A stretch of DNA of 64,000 nt, taken from Streptomyces sp. NBC_01268. Lineage in GTDB: Bacteria > Actinomycetota > Actinomycetes > Streptomycetales > Streptomycetaceae. The stretch spans positions 496,001-560,000 of the forward strand of contig NZ_CP108454.1 in NCBI RefSeq assembly GCF_036240795.1. The letters run 5' to 3'. Shown one piece after another: positions 3 to 24,715 of the stretch (positions are counted from its first letter, which is position 1; each line of letters starts with the position of its first letter). Under the pieces are notes generated by a model that was not told the origin of the DNA, ran no database searches, and saw nothing but the letters and a program-made list of their open reading frames with translations. The translations under genes and the position numbers were made by a program.

Positions 3-1118
3 GAGTCGTGGTGGTTCTTCCTCTTCCGCTTCCTCACCGGCTTCGGCATCGGCGGCGAGTACGCGGCCATCAACTCCGCGATCGACGAGCTGATCCCGTC
101 CCTCTACCGGGGACGGGTCGACCTGATCATCAACGGCAGCTACTGGCTGGGCGCCATCGGCGGCGCCCTCCTGTCGATCGTCATGCTGGACACCGACATC
201 TTCCCGAAGGACCTCGGCTGGCGACTCAGCTTCGCCCTCGGCGTCGTCCTCGGCCTGGTCATCCTGCTGGTACGCCGGCACGTCCCGGAGAGTCCACGCT
301 GGCAGTTCATCCACGGCCACGAGAAGGAGGCCGACGAGCTGGTCACCTCCGTGGAGCGGGAGATCGAGGCCGAGAAGGGCACGGAGCTGCCGCCGCCGGC
401 CGGCGAGATCACCGTCCACCAGCGCAAGAGCATCGGCTTCGGCACGATCGCGAAGACGGTCTTCGGCCTCTACCCGCGCCGCGCCGTCCTCGGGCTGGCC
501 CTCTTCATCGGGCAGGCGTTCCTCTACAACGCGATCACCTTCGGCTTCGGCACCATCCTCATCACCTTCTTCGACGTGCCGACCGGCAGCACCGGCTACT
601 ACTTCGCCGTGATCGCGGCGGGCAACTTCCTGGGGCCGTTGCTGCTCGGCCGGCTCTTCGACACCGTCGGCCGCCGGATCATGATCACAGCCACCTACCT
701 GCTGTCGGGCCTCCTGCTCTTCGGGACGGCCTGGCTCTTCGGCCGGGGCTCGCTGACGGCGACGACCCTGACCGCCTGCTGGTGCGTGGTGCTCTTCTTC
801 GCCTCGACAGGCGCCTCCAGCGCCTATCTGACGGTCTCCGAGATCTTCCCGATGGAGACCCGTGCCATGGCCATCGCCTTCTTCTACGCGCTGGGGACGG
901 CGGCCGGCGGCATCACCGGCCCGCTGGTCTTCGCCGAGCTGACCGAGTCGGGGGTGGTCGGGGACACCGTGCTGGCCTTCCAGATCGGGGCCGCGCTGAT
1001 GTGCGCGGCGGGGATCGTGGCCGCCTTCCTGGCGGTGAACGCGGAGCGCCGCTCGCTGGAGGACATCGCCGCGCCGCTCTCGGCGGTGCGGGACGGGGAG
1101 GAATCCACCCGGGGCTGA
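3..1118 (+). CDS. MFS transporter, 3' part (5' end outside window)
   Basis: Polytopic membrane transporter of the major facilitator superfamily; the reading frame is open at the left edge, so about 371 C-terminal residues are visible. Near the beginning, GFGIGGEYAAINSAIDE followed by an LIPSLYRGR stretch is the helix 4-5 signature of sugar/organic-acid type MFS carriers. Further on, the RLFDTVGRR loop is the repeat of the family D-x-x-G-R-R motif, followed by four to five more hydrophobic helices (for example around 690-800 and 880-1030). The charged loop at about 300-430 is the usual central cytoplasmic loop. The substrate cannot be told from the sequence. It converges on the M20 peptidase gene with a 25-bp gap and no obvious hairpin. 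Confidence 0.85.
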   Translation, partial: ESWWFFLFRFLTGFGIGGEYAAINSAIDELIPSLYRGRVDLIINGSYWLGAIGGALLSIVMLDTDIFPKDLGWRLSFALGVVLGLVILLVRRHVPESPRWQFIHGHEKEADELVTSVEREIEAEKGTELPPPAGEITVHQRKSIGFGTIAKTVFGLYPRRAVLGLALFIGQAFLYNAITFGFGTILITFFDVPTGSTGYYFAVIAAGNFLGPLLLGRLFDTVGRRIMITATYLLSGLLLFGTAWLFGRGSLTATTLTACWCVVLFFASTGASSAYLTVSEIFPMETRAMAIAFFYALGTAAGGITGPLVFAELTESGVVGDTVLAFQIGAALMCAAGIVAAFLAVNAERRSLEDIAAPLSAVRDGEESTRG

Positions 1119-2334: not shown

Positions 2335-2668
2335 GCTTCTCCCCACCCTGTCGGTCGTGTCGTACCGGTACCGCGCGGACGGCTGCCATCCTCTCCGCCG
2401 CCGGGCGGACGCGCGCACCCCCGCCGACGGGGAACGTTTCCTTCCGCGTCCCGCGTCCGCGACGCCGCACGGCCGGCCCGTCCCCGCGGCCGCCGCCGCC
2501 GGGGACATTGCCCGGGGCGGCCACTCCCAGGGGCAGCACCCATGCCCTCTTGTCAGCACGTACGCCCCTCCCTACCGTGGTCCAGCGAGTCCTTGGCCCA
2601 CCGGGTCCACCGGCCCGTGCCGGCCATTTCCTGTTCCTCAGCGCACGACAGACATATGGAGGCGTCAC
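2335..2668. promoter_or_regulatory. Divergent promoter region, M20 peptidase / lanthipeptide locus
   Basis: This 334-bp non-coding stretch separates two divergent genes and must hold the promoters of both. It is GC-rich. I could not assign a convincing -35/-10 pair or operator. The only clear signal is the GGAGG ribosome site at 2658-2662 just before the precursor ATG. Confidence 0.45.
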
Positions 2669-2851
2669 ATGCCCGTAGCCGTGCCGGACGTTCTGGAAGT
2701 CGACGGTTTCCGCGACGCGGGTCCGTTGGAGATCGACGACGAGGCGATCGTGTTCGAGGACGACGACCGCAGCGACCGTGAGTACTCGGCGTGTCTTGCC
2801 GACCCCTGGGTGACCGCCACCACCCGGTTCGCCTGTGATCTGAACTCCTGA
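2669..2851 (+). CDS. Lanthipeptide precursor peptide (class III/IV type)
   Basis: 60-residue peptide starting at an ATG seven nucleotides after a GGAGG ribosome site. The first ~38 residues are a strongly acidic leader (D/E-rich, with the hydrophobic patches VPDVLEVDGF and EAIVFE that leader-dependent lanthionine synthetases could bind). The C-terminal ~22 residues carry the Ser/Thr and Cys residues needed for thioether rings: Ser40, Cys42, Thr49, Thr51, Thr52, Cys56, Ser60. The stop lies 2 nt before the synthetase start, so the two are translationally coupled. With two cysteines, at most two lanthionine/methyllanthionine (or labionin) rings can form. Thr49/51/52 to Cys56 is a likely C-terminal ring. 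The core boundary is inferred; no double-Gly or other standard cleavage motif is visible. Confidence 0.8.
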   Translation: MPVAVPDVLEVDGFRDAGPLEIDDEAIVFEDDDRSDREYSACLADPWVTATTRFACDLNS

Positions 2852-2853
2852 CG

Positions 2854-5460
2854 GTGGCCGTTTCCATCACCGGCCGCATCGGTGGGGCCGATGACACGTG
2901 GACGTATCTGAGCGATCCGCGGATGCCGGCGATGGAACACGGCTGGAAACTGCACGTCTCGGCGCGTCCCGGCGACCTCGACACCGTGATCCGGCTGGTC
3001 CTGCCCGTGCTGGAGCGGCACGTCTGCCACGCGAAGTTCGCGCGTGACCCGGAGACGCTGCGCCGCCTCAACTCCGGTGGGGTGAGCGCCGGAGCCGTCG
3101 GCAAGGCGATCACCGTGTACCCGTCGGACGGGACCGTGGTCGAGGTCGCCCGGGAACTCGCCGCCGTGCTGCGCGACCGGGAGGGCCCGCGGGTCGTCAG
3201 CGACCGGCGGGTCGACCCGAGGGCTCCGGTCTACTACCGGTACGGCCCGTTCACGGGCGAGTACCGGACCGGCCGGAGCGGACGGCTCGAGTCCGTCATG
3301 ACCGGGCCGGACGGCCGGATCTTCGACGGCCTGGCCGTCGGACGCTACCGGTGCCCGCCGTGGGCCGAGGACCCCTTCGACGCCGGCGGCGGAAACGCTG
3401 CCGAGCCGTCCGGCCCCGGCTTCGGCGGCGGACGCTACACGGTCACCGCCGGCATCGCGCGCTCGGCCCGGGGCAACGTCTACCGCGCGGTCGACCGCGC
3501 CCTCGGGCTCCCCGTGGTCGTCAAGCAGGCACGGGCCTTCGTGGGCGAGGACGAAGCCGGTACGGACGGCCGCCACCGGCTCCGCAACGAGCGCGTGGTC
3601 CTCACCGCGCTCGACGGCGTCACGGGCGTGCCGCGTGCGCTGGACTACTTCGCCCACCAGTCGGACGAGTACCTGGTGATGAGCAGCTGCGGCGACCGGG
3701 ACCTGCGCAGGGAGGTCCTGCGCGACGGCCCCTACCGGGACGACGGCACCCGTCCGGTGCGCGCCCTGTCCGACCTCGCCTCCCGGCTGCTCGGCGTCCT
3801 GGACGCCGTCCACGGCCGGAACGTGGTCGTCCGCGACCTCAAACCCGACAACGTCGTGCTCGACGACTCGGGCCCCGGCCACTGCCACCTGATCGACTTC
3901 GGCATCAGCGAATGGAACGGCGACGGTCCGGGAGGCGCGACCCCGGGATACAGCGAACCGGTTCTGCGCGGGACCGGTCCGGCCACCCCCGCCGACGACC
4001 ACTACTCCCTCGGCGCGACCCTCTTCTTCGCCGCCACCGGCATGGACCCGGTGATCGTCGACGCCGACCACGAGGTCAACCGGGACCGGACCCTGGCCTG
4101 CCTGGCATGGGCGCTGCCCGGGCGCGCCCACCGGGAGATCCGGGCGTCGATCACCGGTCTCCTCAGCTTCGACCCGGCGGTACGGACCGCCGCCGCCGGC
4201 CGGCTGCGCACGGGCGCGGCCGGAACCGCGCGGCGGCCCGCGCGTCCCCGGATCGACAGCGCACTGCTGGACGAGATCGTCGAGCACACCACCGCGTACT
4301 GCGTCGCGGAAGCCCGGGCGATCGTGGACCCGGAGCGGGCCGCGCACTTGAACGTCCCCACCTCGATCGACGTCTACGGCGGCAGCTCGGGACTCGGGCT
4401 GGAACTCCTCCGGCACGCGCACCGGCCCCCGGTCCGTTCGGCGGTCACGGCGCTGGCCCGGTGGACCGCTGATCAGTCGAGGAACCTGTCGCCCGGCTTC
4501 TACACGGGCCGCACCGGCGTCGAACTCTTCCTCGCGGAGGCCGGGGCGGAGGCCGGGGCGGAGGCCGGGACGGCGGGGGCGGCAACGCCGTCGGACGCGG
4601 GCTCGGAGTCGCGGTCGGGCGCGGACTCCCCCGCGCGGCCCGGGCACCCCGGCCTCCCGGACCGTGCACCGGACGGCGGCCCCCCGGAGGCGGACCTGAT
4701 CGCGGGTGCCGCCGGCATCGGGCTCGGGCGGCTCCTGCTCGCCCGGCACGCCCTCCGGGGCGGTGACCGAACCGCCGCGGACGGGCACCTCGCCGTCGCC
4801 GCCGCGTGCGACCGGATGCTGGCGTCCGGCACCGCCCGGCTGACCCCGGCCGGTCCGGTCACGGCCGGCAGCGCCGCACTCCGCGAGGGCCTCGCGCACG
4901 GGGAGGCGGGGGTCGCCTGCTTCCTGCTCGAATACGGCGCCGTGACCGGGGACCCCGATGCGACCAGCCGCTCCGAGCAGGCCGCCGCGCGCCTGGCCGC
5001 CGTGACGCCGGACATCATCGCGGCGGCCGCCGCGCCGGGGGCGACCCGCCGGTACGGCTCGTGGTGCCGGGGGCTCGCCGGCATCGGGACCGTACTCCTC
5101 CGGGCCGCCGTACACCTCGACGATCCCGGGTACCTCGACCTGGCCCAGCGGGCCGCGCGCGCCTGCGCCGTACTGGCGCCCCGGATGCCGCTGGTCACGC
5201 AGTGCTGCGGCCTGGCCGGAGTGGGCGACCTGATGGTGGACGTCGCCGACGCGTCCGGGTCCGAGGAGTTCCGGGACGCCGCCGAGACCGTCGCCCTGCT
5301 CATCCTGAGCCGCAGCGGCGGCAGTTGGTCGCGGCCCGTGTTCCCGGACACCGGGCTGGCCCGGTCGAGCGCCACCTGGGCCGGTGGCTCCGCGGGCGTG
5401 CTGGCCTTCTTCAGACGGCTGCGCGACCGGGGCGGTCCGCGGCTCGGCCTCCTCGCCTGA
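2854..5460 (+). CDS. lanL: Class IV-like lanthionine synthetase LanL (lyase-kinase-cyclase)
   Basis: 868-residue three-domain enzyme that would phosphorylate Ser/Thr of the neighbouring precursor, eliminate phosphate and cyclise Cys onto the dehydroamino acids. The N-terminal ~190 residues match the phospho-Ser/Thr lyase domain (GWKLHVSA with Lys32 and His34; an LNSGG...GKAITVYP block near residue 80-100). Residues ~205-470 are a Ser/Thr kinase: Lys224 in VVVKQA, catalytic Asp328 in VRDLKPDN, and Asp348 of the DFG. Residues ~480-868 are a LanC-like cyclase with SWCRGLAG (Cys738) and TQCCGLAG (Cys784, Cys785). These give a plausible zinc site, favouring class IV (LanL) over zinc-less class III LanKC. 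The cyclase carries an Ala/Glu/Gly-rich insert at about 560-620. The GTG start is 2 nt after the precursor stop with no ribosome site of its own. No dedicated protease or exporter is adjacent. Confidence 0.88.
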   Translation: MAVSITGRIGGADDTWTYLSDPRMPAMEHGWKLHVSARPGDLDTVIRLVLPVLERHVCHAKFARDPETLRRLNSGGVSAGAVGKAITVYPSDGTVVEVARELAAVLRDREGPRVVSDRRVDPRAPVYYRYGPFTGEYRTGRSGRLESVMTGPDGRIFDGLAVGRYRCPPWAEDPFDAGGGNAAEPSGPGFGGGRYTVTAGIARSARGNVYRAVDRALGLPVVVKQARAFVGEDEAGTDGRHRLRNERVVLTALDGVTGVPRALDYFAHQSDEYLVMSSCGDRDLRREVLRDGPYRDDGTRPVRALSDLASRLLGVLDAVHGRNVVVRDLKPDNVVLDDSGPGHCHLIDFGISEWNGDGPGGATPGYSEPVLRGTGPATPADDHYSLGATLFFAATGMDPVIVDADHEVNRDRTLACLAWALPGRAHREIRASITGLLSFDPAVRTAAAGRLRTGAAGTARRPARPRIDSALLDEIVEHTTAYCVAEARAIVDPERAAHLNVPTSIDVYGGSSGLGLELLRHAHRPPVRSAVTALARWTADQSRNLSPGFYTGRTGVELFLAEAGAEAGAEAGTAGAATPSDAGSESRSGADSPARPGHPGLPDRAPDGGPPEADLIAGAAGIGLGRLLLARHALRGGDRTAADGHLAVAAACDRMLASGTARLTPAGPVTAGSAALREGLAHGEAGVACFLLEYGAVTGDPDATSRSEQAAARLAAVTPDIIAAAAAPGATRRYGSWCRGLAGIGTVLLRAAVHLDDPGYLDLAQRAARACAVLAPRMPLVTQCCGLAGVGDLMVDVADASGSEEFRDAAETVALLILSRSGGSWSRPVFPDTGLARSSATWAGGSAGVLAFFRRLRDRGGPRLGLLA

Positions 5461-7249: not shown

Positions 7250-8030
7250 ATGAAGACGCTGATCGTCCACGCCCACCCGGAGCCGAGGTCGCTCAACAGC
7301 TCGCTGAAGGACCTCGCGGTGTCCACGCTGGAGGCCGCCGGGCACGAGGTGCGGGTGAGTGATCTGTACGCGATGCAGTGGAAGGCGGTCGTGGACGCCG
7401 AGGACTACGGCTCCCACGCTTCGAGTCCGCTGAGGGTGGCCCTGGACTCGGGCCGGGCCTTCGAGGCAGGGGCGCTCACCGCGGACGTCCGCGCCGAGCA
7501 GGAGAAGCTGCTGTGGGCCGACACGATCATCTTCCAGTTCCCGCTGTGGTGGTACTCGATGCCCGCGATCCTCAAGGGCTGGGTGGACCGGGTGTTCACC
7601 TACCGCTTCGCGTACGGCGTCGGCGAGCACAGCGACACCAAGTACGGCGAGCGATTCCCGCGAGGGCACCCTCGCGGGCAGGCGGGCCCTGCTGTCGGTG
7701 ACCGTCGGCGGGCCGGAGTCGCACTACTCCGCTCGCGGGATCAACGGCCCCATCGACGATCTGCTGTTCCCGATGCAGCACGGCGTCCTCTACTACCCGG
7801 GCGTCGAGGTGCTGCCCCCGTTCGTGCTGCACGGCGTCGACCGGATGGGCGTCGAGGAGTTCCCGGAGGTCGCCAAGGCGTGGGAGGAGCGCCTGCTCAC
7901 CCTGGAGTCGACCGAGCCGATCGCGTTCCGGCGGCAGAACTTCGGTGACTACGAGATCCCCTCGCTGCACCTGAAGGAGGGTCTGGAGCCCGCGGGCCGT
8001 ACGGGTTTCGGGCTGCACGTACGCGGCTGA
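7250..8030 (+). pseudogene. NAD(P)H oxidoreductase (flavodoxin-fold, YwrO/KefF type), frameshifted
   Basis: The reading frame opening with MKTLIVHAHPEP, after an AAGGAG ribosome site, matches flavodoxin-fold NAD(P)H:quinone reductases. It shows SLNSSLKDLA, ADTIIFQFPLWWYSMPAILKG and the VDRVFTYRFAYG segment. Family similarity breaks at about residue 136 and resumes in the +1 frame as LLSVTVGGPESHYSARG, continuing to the TGA at 8028-8030 (HGVDRMG and the rest of the usual C-terminus). The shift maps to the CCC run at 7657-7659; dropping one C restores a single ~259-residue enzyme. Either a recent inactivation or a sequencing error. It would be FMN-binding, cytosolic and controlled by the divergent MmyB-like regulator. 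Confidence 0.8.
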
Positions 8031-23371: not shown

Positions 23372-24715
23372 TCAGGCCGCCTGCTTCCGGCCGGTCTGCT
23401 GGGCGAGCTGATCGGCCGCGGCCTTGAGCACGGCGGCCGGGTCGGCTCCCTTGAGCAGGACCTGGGTCTGGGCGTCGGCGGCGAACTTCAGGGCCCGGCT
23501 GTAGTCGCCGGTGAAGTTGGTGGCCGCCGCCCCCGGGCCGAGCGAGGTGACGAAGGACCGCAGCACCTGCTGACCGCCGTAGAACGGGTGCGGCGCGCTG
23601 AACTTCGGGTCGTCGTACGCCTTCTTGAGGGCGGGGAAGACGCCGCCCGAGGCGAACATGCGGTTGATCTCGGCCGGCTTGGTGAGCGCGTACTCGATGA
23701 ACCGCCAGGCCGCCTTGCGGCGCTTGCTGGTGGCGGAGACGGCCAGGTAGGTGGAGTTGACGATGGCGCTGCGGCCTCCCCCGGGGACGGCGGCGGGCGG
23801 CTGCATGACCCGCCACCTGCCGCTCTGCGCGGGGAACTTGGTGGCCAGGTACTCGACGGCCCAGGCGGGGTCGGGGGCGGTGGCCAGCTTCCCCTGGCCG
23901 ACCAGCCGCTTCCAGGTGCCTTCGCCGGCGATGTCGGAGACGAGACCGGCGTCGTTGAGCCTCTTGATCACCGTGAGGGCTTCGACAGCGGGCTTGGAGG
24001 CGAGCGTGATCCTGCCTTCGGCGTCGAAGTAGAAGGCGCCCTGGAGCTGCAGCAGGTTCTGGAAGAAGTCCACGTCCTGACTGGAGCCGGGCTTGTCGAG
24101 CCCGAGCAGCCGGGCGCCGGTCGCGGCGCGGATCTTCGGCCCCGCGGCGATCAGGTCGTCCCAGCTGGTGATCGACGCGGGGTCGACGCCGGCCTTCTCG
24201 AAGTAGTCGTGCCGGTAGAACAGTCCCAGCGGGTTGACCTCCCAGGGGAGGGCGTGGACGGCTCTGTCCTTGCCCACGACGGTCGGCCACAGGCCGTCGG
24301 CGAAGGCGTCCTTGTGCCGGTCGGCCCCCAGCCTGGACAGGTCGGCGAGCCCCTGGGGGAACTTCTCCATGTAGCCGGGCAGGTAGTCGACGCCGATGTG
24401 CAGGACGTCGGCGAGGCCCTTGCCGCCCGAGGCGAGACCGACGGTGATCTTGTCCCAGATGGCGGGGTTGCCGAGGTCCTGGACGTCGACCTTGATGCCG
24501 GGGTTGTCGCGCTCGAAGGACGGGACGACGCCGCGCAGGGCCTCGGCGGCGGTGGTCCAGCTCCAGACCGTGATCGGCCCGCTGTCTCCGTCGGCCCCAC
24601 CGGCGCCACCGCCCGAACCGCCGCTGCCGCAGGCGGTCAGGCCGAGTCCGGCGGCGGAGGCGGTCGCGAGCTGGAGTATCCGGCGGCGGCTCAGGGAGTG
24701 GGCGTGCTGGGACAT
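23372..24715 (-). CDS. Sugar-binding lipoprotein of an ABC importer
   Basis: 447-residue extracellular solute-binding protein. The N-terminus combines a Tat-like twin-arginine motif (SLSRRRILQLA) with a lipobox LTAC, so Cys29 would be lipidated. A Gly-rich linker and the SBP fold follow (ITVWSWTTAAEALRGVVPSF; FYRHDYFEKAGVDPASITSW; a GTWKRLVGQGKLA segment). The CAGGAG ribosome site is 5 nt before the ATG. Together with GH36 it suggests uptake of alpha-galactosides (melibiose/raffinose type); this is inferred from neighbours. Confidence 0.92.
   Translation of the reverse strand: MSQHAHSLSRRRILQLATASAAGLGLTACGSGGSGGGAGGADGDSGPITVWSWTTAAEALRGVVPSFERDNPGIKVDVQDLGNPAIWDKITVGLASGGKGLADVLHIGVDYLPGYMEKFPQGLADLSRLGADRHKDAFADGLWPTVVGKDRAVHALPWEVNPLGLFYRHDYFEKAGVDPASITSWDDLIAAGPKIRAATGARLLGLDKPGSSQDVDFFQNLLQLQGAFYFDAEGRITLASKPAVEALTVIKRLNDAGLVSDIAGEGTWKRLVGQGKLATAPDPAWAVEYLATKFPAQSGRWRVMQPPAAVPGGGRSAIVNSTYLAVSATSKRRKAAWRFIEYALTKPAEINRMFASGGVFPALKKAYDDPKFSAPHPFYGGQQVLRSFVTSLGPGAAATNFTGDYSRALKFAADAQTQVLLKGADPAAVLKAAADQLAQQTGRKQAA

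Follow-up and report, generated by a model that had tools for sequence, protein, structure and literature searches.

An SflA-type class IV lanthipeptide gene pair in Streptomyces sp. NBC_01268 and its relatives in Streptomyces and Kitasatospora

The described systems closest to the locus reported here are the sfl locus, which encodes the class IV lanthipeptide SflA, and the ven locus, which encodes venezuelin. SflA was reportedly solved by Ren et al. in 2020. In the accessible text of one study, the SflA rings are given as non-interlaced and Streptomyces sp. NRRL S-1022 is listed as the Sfl strain (PMC8358304). According to the available part of another, AplP-like M1 proteases lie outside the biosynthetic loci in class III and class IV producers, and one of them acts on SflA, for which PDLLK is quoted as cleavage site (PMC10885120). 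For venezuelin, the part of the paper at hand describes an ABC transporter, venTH, linked to the locus, and names Lys51, His53, Arg83 and Tyr108 as the lyase residues of VenL (PMC2843593). Expression in E. coli yielded product from only 2 of 7 class IV clusters in another study (PMC9576775).

Here, we describe a lanA-lanL gene pair in the 8.5-Mb, single-contig genome of Streptomyces sp. NBC_01268. The window, that is the whole stretch of 64,000 nucleotides that was analysed, corresponds to positions 496001-560000 of this contig, and coordinates below are those of the window unless a contig position is given. With a probability of about 0.93, we consider the pair orthologous to the sfl locus: a class IV lanthipeptide cassette, made up of two genes and shared by Streptomyces with related genera, that would act by the mechanism outlined in the last section.

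The gene pair and its lanthionine synthetase

2669..2851 (including stop), plus strand: lanA, SflA-family class IV lanthipeptide precursor; ATG start, 60 aa; NF038148, 105.9 bits
2854..5460, plus strand: lanL, class IV lanthionine synthetase; GTG start, 868 aa; NF038150, 919.9 bits
2887..3381, plus strand: phospho-Ser/Thr lyase domain RamC_N of LanL, residues 12-176; PF25816, 146.8 bits; K32, H34, Y89
3466..4194, plus strand: Ser/Thr kinase domain Pkinase of LanL, residues 205-447; PF00069, 65 bits; K224, D328, N333, D348
4360..5421, plus strand: LanC-like cyclase domain LANC_like of LanL, residues 503-856; PF05147, 65 bits; H682, WCRG (C738), CCG (C784, C785)

The initial annotation had described a 60-residue ORF with an acidic leader, followed after 2 nt by a lyase-kinase-cyclase ORF, and the reading frames, Pfam domains and NCBIfam family matches confirm this arrangement. 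The C-terminal part of the precursor contains Cys42 and Cys56, the threonines 49, 51 and 52, and Ser40 and Ser60. The precursor belongs to the NCBIfam family NF038148, "SflA family class IV lanthipeptide", exceeding its cut-off of 25 bits by far (105.9 bits, E 6.9e-31), and since this is a match to a curated precursor family, the small ORF is not a chance one. The enzyme, initially called class IV-like, is borne out as such by its score against the class IV LanL family NF038150 (cut-off 650). All three of its domains exceed their Pfam cut-offs, and they combine lyase, kinase and LanC-like cyclase with zinc-ligand motifs, as does the class IV LanL of the ven locus. The lyase residues K32, H34 and Y89 were assigned by motif match rather than by alignment to VenL, with the counterpart of the VenL arginine left unplaced. 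In the cyclase, the second Cys of CCG presumably substitutes for the usual His ligand, as in other cyclases. The best match of LanL among solved structures is PDB 8car (514.7 bits), and TQCCGLAG is found in 8car/8cav ("Serine/threonine protein kinase") too.

In NRRL S-1022 (locus L039), an ORF at the same place is identical to the precursor in 51 of 60 residues and contains the published cleavage site PDLLK (PMC10885120, available part), and the LanLs of the two strains share 733 of 867 residues (85%). The sfl locus resembles the present one in the lanA-lanL order, the 2-nt gap, the upstream element and, as far as the accessible sources go, the lack of a reported linked protease; the two precursors differ by nine substitutions, and the present one has, for instance, Ser in place of Thr at residue 40, Ala in place of Ser at residue 44, and PDVLE where SflA reads PDLLK. 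Judged by its sequence, the gene pair is an SflA orthologue, which is a known and largely ordinary identity, the finding being the orthologue of an already characterised peptide; what stands out is the unusually strong conservation of its core and of a DNA stretch 5' of the pair.

Distribution, core conservation and predicted rings

Matches to NF038148 were found in 19 of 392 genus genomes, 47 of 394 family genomes, which represent 4 of 17 genera, and a single one of 396 phylum genomes; the three samples overlap, NBC_01268 is counted in each, and it is itself the sole match in the phylum sample. Sequence searches yielded 31 named relatives, all of them Streptomyces or Kitasatospora. Twelve ORFs of the window, among them those of LanA and LanL, were searched for in these 31 named loci, and the precursor was found in 29, the two left out (L062 and L063) being contig fragments that lack the precursor side. 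The 29, with 19 matches from the genus sample and 48 from the family sample, make up a set of 93 loci, not all from different species. The precursor is readable in 92 of them; in L089, the part of it that can be recognised does not share the frame of the apparent start. LanL lies within 1.5 kb downstream of the precursor in 76 of 76 loci and in 15 of 16 examined later (91 of 92 together), so that the small ORF is conserved beside lanL, the refuting condition named in the initial annotation did not arise, and the compact two-gene locus first proposed for this genome recurs across the relatives analysed. The exception, L114, has no LanL downstream; its genome contains another copy, and L114 is the second one, with a low score. 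In SflA-type loci, about 1-5 nt separate the two genes, compared with more than 100 nt in most others.

2669..2785, plus strand: leader, residues 1-39; boundary nominal
2786..2848, plus strand: core region, residues 40-60, with C42, T49, T52 and C56 conserved

Among the 58 distinct precursors of the first set, A41, C42, L43, P46, T49, T52 and C56 are invariant. Position 40 varies widely (T, E, S, V, M, Q or A), position 44 is A, S, P or V, position 51 is T or P, and position 60 varies or is missing. In the leader, column counts over these 58 precursors show R15-D-A-G-P-L20 and F29-E-D31 as conserved, and PDVLE (residues 6-10) is the counterpart of the SflA cleavage site PDLLK as quoted in the available part of PMC10885120. 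With 16 further loci added, most of them lower-scoring (n=73), C42 is retained in 73, T49 in 71, T52 in 70 (plus one Ser) and C56 in 71. A comparison of 26 distinct 60-codon genes gave pN/pS values of 0.572 for the leader (pN 0.104, pS 0.181), 0.208 for residues 40-60 (pN 0.054, pS 0.258) and 0.142 for residues 41-57; the leader value is raised because leader pS is itself the lower one, and the short contig L054 was left out. The core of the SflA type changes less than its leader, in statistics that, like the conservation counts, ignore shared ancestry and include several loci that represent the same species twice.

Two non-overlapping rings are compatible with the conservation of C42, T49, T52 and C56. 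Since T49 and T52 are the best-conserved hydroxyl residues and the SflA rings are reported as non-interlaced (PMC8358304, accessible text), one non-overlapping pairing results, and two rings, Cys42-Thr49 and Thr52-Cys56, are predicted. These exact partners, which we infer from conservation, are proposed for the SflA-like majority, because four low-scoring members, L114, L116, L117 and L118, break the pattern of ring residues. Both L114 and L116 have one Cys each; L117 and L118 (genomes G561 and G546) combine SflA-family leaders with quite different cores, each with two Cys. The products of these four loci would not share the SflA ring pattern. A sub-clade with a VTYVPT core (L082, L086, L090, L091, L092, L103, L104, L108, L110 and L111) has one more residue between the cysteines and no upstream element.

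Upstream element, genomic surroundings and alternative readings

2549..2578, plus strand: promoter-like element CTTGTCAG...TACCGT; hexamers at 2550-2555 and 2573-2578, 17-nt spacer
2658..2662, plus strand: ribosome-binding site GGAGG before the ATG; identical in all 20 upstream regions that were aligned

About 92 nt 5' of the precursor start lies an element that fits a vegetative-type promoter with a 17-nt spacer. All 43 distinct SflA-type upstream regions contain the pattern CTTG(T/C)CA(G/C), followed after 14 to 18 nt by TAC(C/T/G), compared with 0 of 15 others, and it was found nowhere else on both strands of the 29 named loci (1,044,646 strand-bases). In L115, a further SflA-type locus, the element is one letter off the strict pattern (43 of 44 strictly), and it was not found in 15 further loci outside the SflA type. 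The 8.5-Mb genome contains a single occurrence of a related pattern, at this locus. These counts are descriptive and provide no independent test, since the pattern was derived from the same alignment. A generic sigma-70 scan did not flag the element, so that the promoter call draws on conservation, and we regard the element as promoter-like, with a putative promoter function. A structured 5'-untranslated RNA was considered for the 124-nt stretch 2577-2700, the last 32 nt of which are coding, and was dropped because the fold was no better than that of shuffled sequences (z 0.09). Neither the upstream element nor the conservation-based ring argument is mentioned in the accessible portions of PMC10885120, PMC9576775, PMC8358304, PMC11117518, PMC2843593, PMC7268733 and PMC10604976; the primary SflA paper lay outside this set, and we do not claim that either is unpublished.

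The gene just upstream of lanA encodes an M20-family hydrolase (1144 to about 2334, minus strand), divergent across about 330 nt, and beyond it lies an MFS transporter-like ORF (183-1118, plus strand). In tblastn searches of the 31 named loci, covering at most 8 kb on each side, the M20, MFS and DUF998 ORFs had no match; at least three of these loci (L054, L062 and L063) end early on one side. Since neither the M20 nor the MFS gene has a match there, neither looks part of the locus. An all-against-all comparison of flanking ORFs from 28 loci, covering frames of at least 120 aa and missing small or very divergent genes, gave no family in more than four loci. Eleven families reach four loci: nine occur solely in a set of four Kitasatospora loci, another includes at least three of those, and the remaining one joins L039, L044, L051 and L064. 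Pfam searches of 14 neighbouring ORFs, out to 24.7 kb, revealed no ABC ATPase or permease, with three of the 14 having no match at all; an ABC-type solute-binding protein (23372-24715, minus strand) is encoded some 18 kb away. In contrast to the ven locus with its venTH (PMC2843593, part at hand), no linked ABC transporter was found beside this lanA-lanL pair. Members of the SflA family usually lack such linked genes for processing and export, and for SflA itself a compact locus with no protease gene is described in the available parts of PMC10885120 and PMC8358304.

Among the other flanking genes, an MmyB-like regulator is matched in three of the 31 named loci, and a sigma-factor-like ORF weakly in two. 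In two of the three, L040 and L042, an NAD(P)H-dehydrogenase-like gene accompanies the MmyB-like regulator, at the opposite side of the cassette. The latter gene (7250-8030, plus strand) has its halves in different frames here and is in one frame in L040 and L042; the split is either a frameshift or a sequence error.

The initial annotation had found the core unlike familiar class IV cores such as that of venezuelin, which would place the product in a new type among class IV lanthipeptides. The precursor does have just two cysteines and lacks a linked exporter of the kind known from venezuelin, and yet from residue 40 onwards it equals the NRRL S-1022 sequence except at positions 40 and 44. 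This orthologue and the score against the SflA-family model contradict an unfamiliar core, and a new type is extremely improbable. A class III (LanKC) locus with labionin rings would show the same lyase-kinase-cyclase layout, and the class III model does match LanL; its 351.1 bits stay below the cut-off of 575 and far under the class IV score. Moreover, all 27 LanLs extracted from the family contain WCRG and CCG (29 attempted; two of the 28 other than the present one could not be extracted, and L054, G000_L004 and G000_L005 were left out of the survey), and class III cyclases are described as having no zinc ligands in the accessible parts of PMC7268733 and PMC10604976, which makes the class III assignment the least credible of the alternatives.

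A cluster larger than two genes, in which the M20 hydrolase and the MFS transporter would be the locus's own processing and export genes, draws on their position directly upstream, the M20 gene being divergently oriented. However, with both genes unmatched in the 31 named loci, no flanking ORF family general, and the M20 protein matching mostly ArgE/DapE-type deacylases, none over a curated cut-off among the best 25 of 34 families, such a cluster is very unlikely. The earlier statement that no protease or exporter lies nearby stands as far as dedicated genes are concerned and needs amending for the two upstream genes. Its companion expectation, maturation by unlinked factors, agrees with the unlinked leader protease of SflA in the available part of PMC10885120. 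The sfl-type two-gene cassette is thus retained as the preferred reading.

Proposed maturation, possible role and other lanthionine synthetases

In the proposed mechanism of this cassette, lanA and lanL would probably form one transcription unit, expressed from their own upstream promoter. The acidic leader would be bound by LanL, whose kinase would phosphorylate the core threonines and possibly Ser40, whose lyase would eliminate the phosphate to give dehydro residues, and whose zinc cyclase would add the two cysteines to these. The predicted product contains two non-overlapping methyllanthionine rings, Cys42-Dhb49 (Cys N-terminal) and Dhb52-Cys56. An M1-type (AplP-like) protease encoded elsewhere may then cut near PDVLE and trim the leader. 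The two non-interlaced rings and the unlinked protease would carry over from what is available in print on SflA, and the identity of the protease, like that of any exporter, is presumptive. Six M1-peptidase domain matches are present elsewhere in the genome, and among the fragments of three that were scanned, none was identified as AplP-like. The position of cleavage may shift, since the last residue of the site, Lys in SflA, is Glu in PDVLE.

In the SflA type, the core with its predicted rings hardly varies, a promoter-like element goes with each cassette, and the neighbouring genes differ between species. A core less variable than its leader would be consistent with a single conserved target or role, and SflA-type peptides might serve Streptomyces and related genera as a conserved signal, either internal or secreted, rather than as variable weapons. 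We hold this role to be rather doubtful, and it is weakened by the divergent cores that occur on the same leader outside the SflA type (L114 and L116-L118). For the SflA type itself, the ring partners predicted from conservation and the dedicated promoter-like element are testable statements.

The genome of NBC_01268 encodes further lanthionine synthetases, given here in contig coordinates. Two other full LanLs have WC.G...CHG cyclases, in contrast to the WC.G...CCG of the SflA-type LanL. The second class IV LanL (G000:C1:7268922-7271531; L002, L095) scores 1215.8 bits and has WCHG/CHG zinc-ligand motifs, and 3' of it lies an ORF that, by eye, is ABC-transporter ATPase-like, as in the venezuelin locus. 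Just 3' of the third (G000:C1:6844443-6847115; L003, L096; 997.7 bits), a frame ends in a small Cys-containing sequence from MMEHDIDALQ, a by-eye candidate precursor. Two lanthionine-synthetase-like genes, at G000:C1:343218-345644 and 7299365-7301881, do not reach the class IV cut-off; for the former, an N-terminal fragment matches the class III model with 431.3 bits (cut-off 575).
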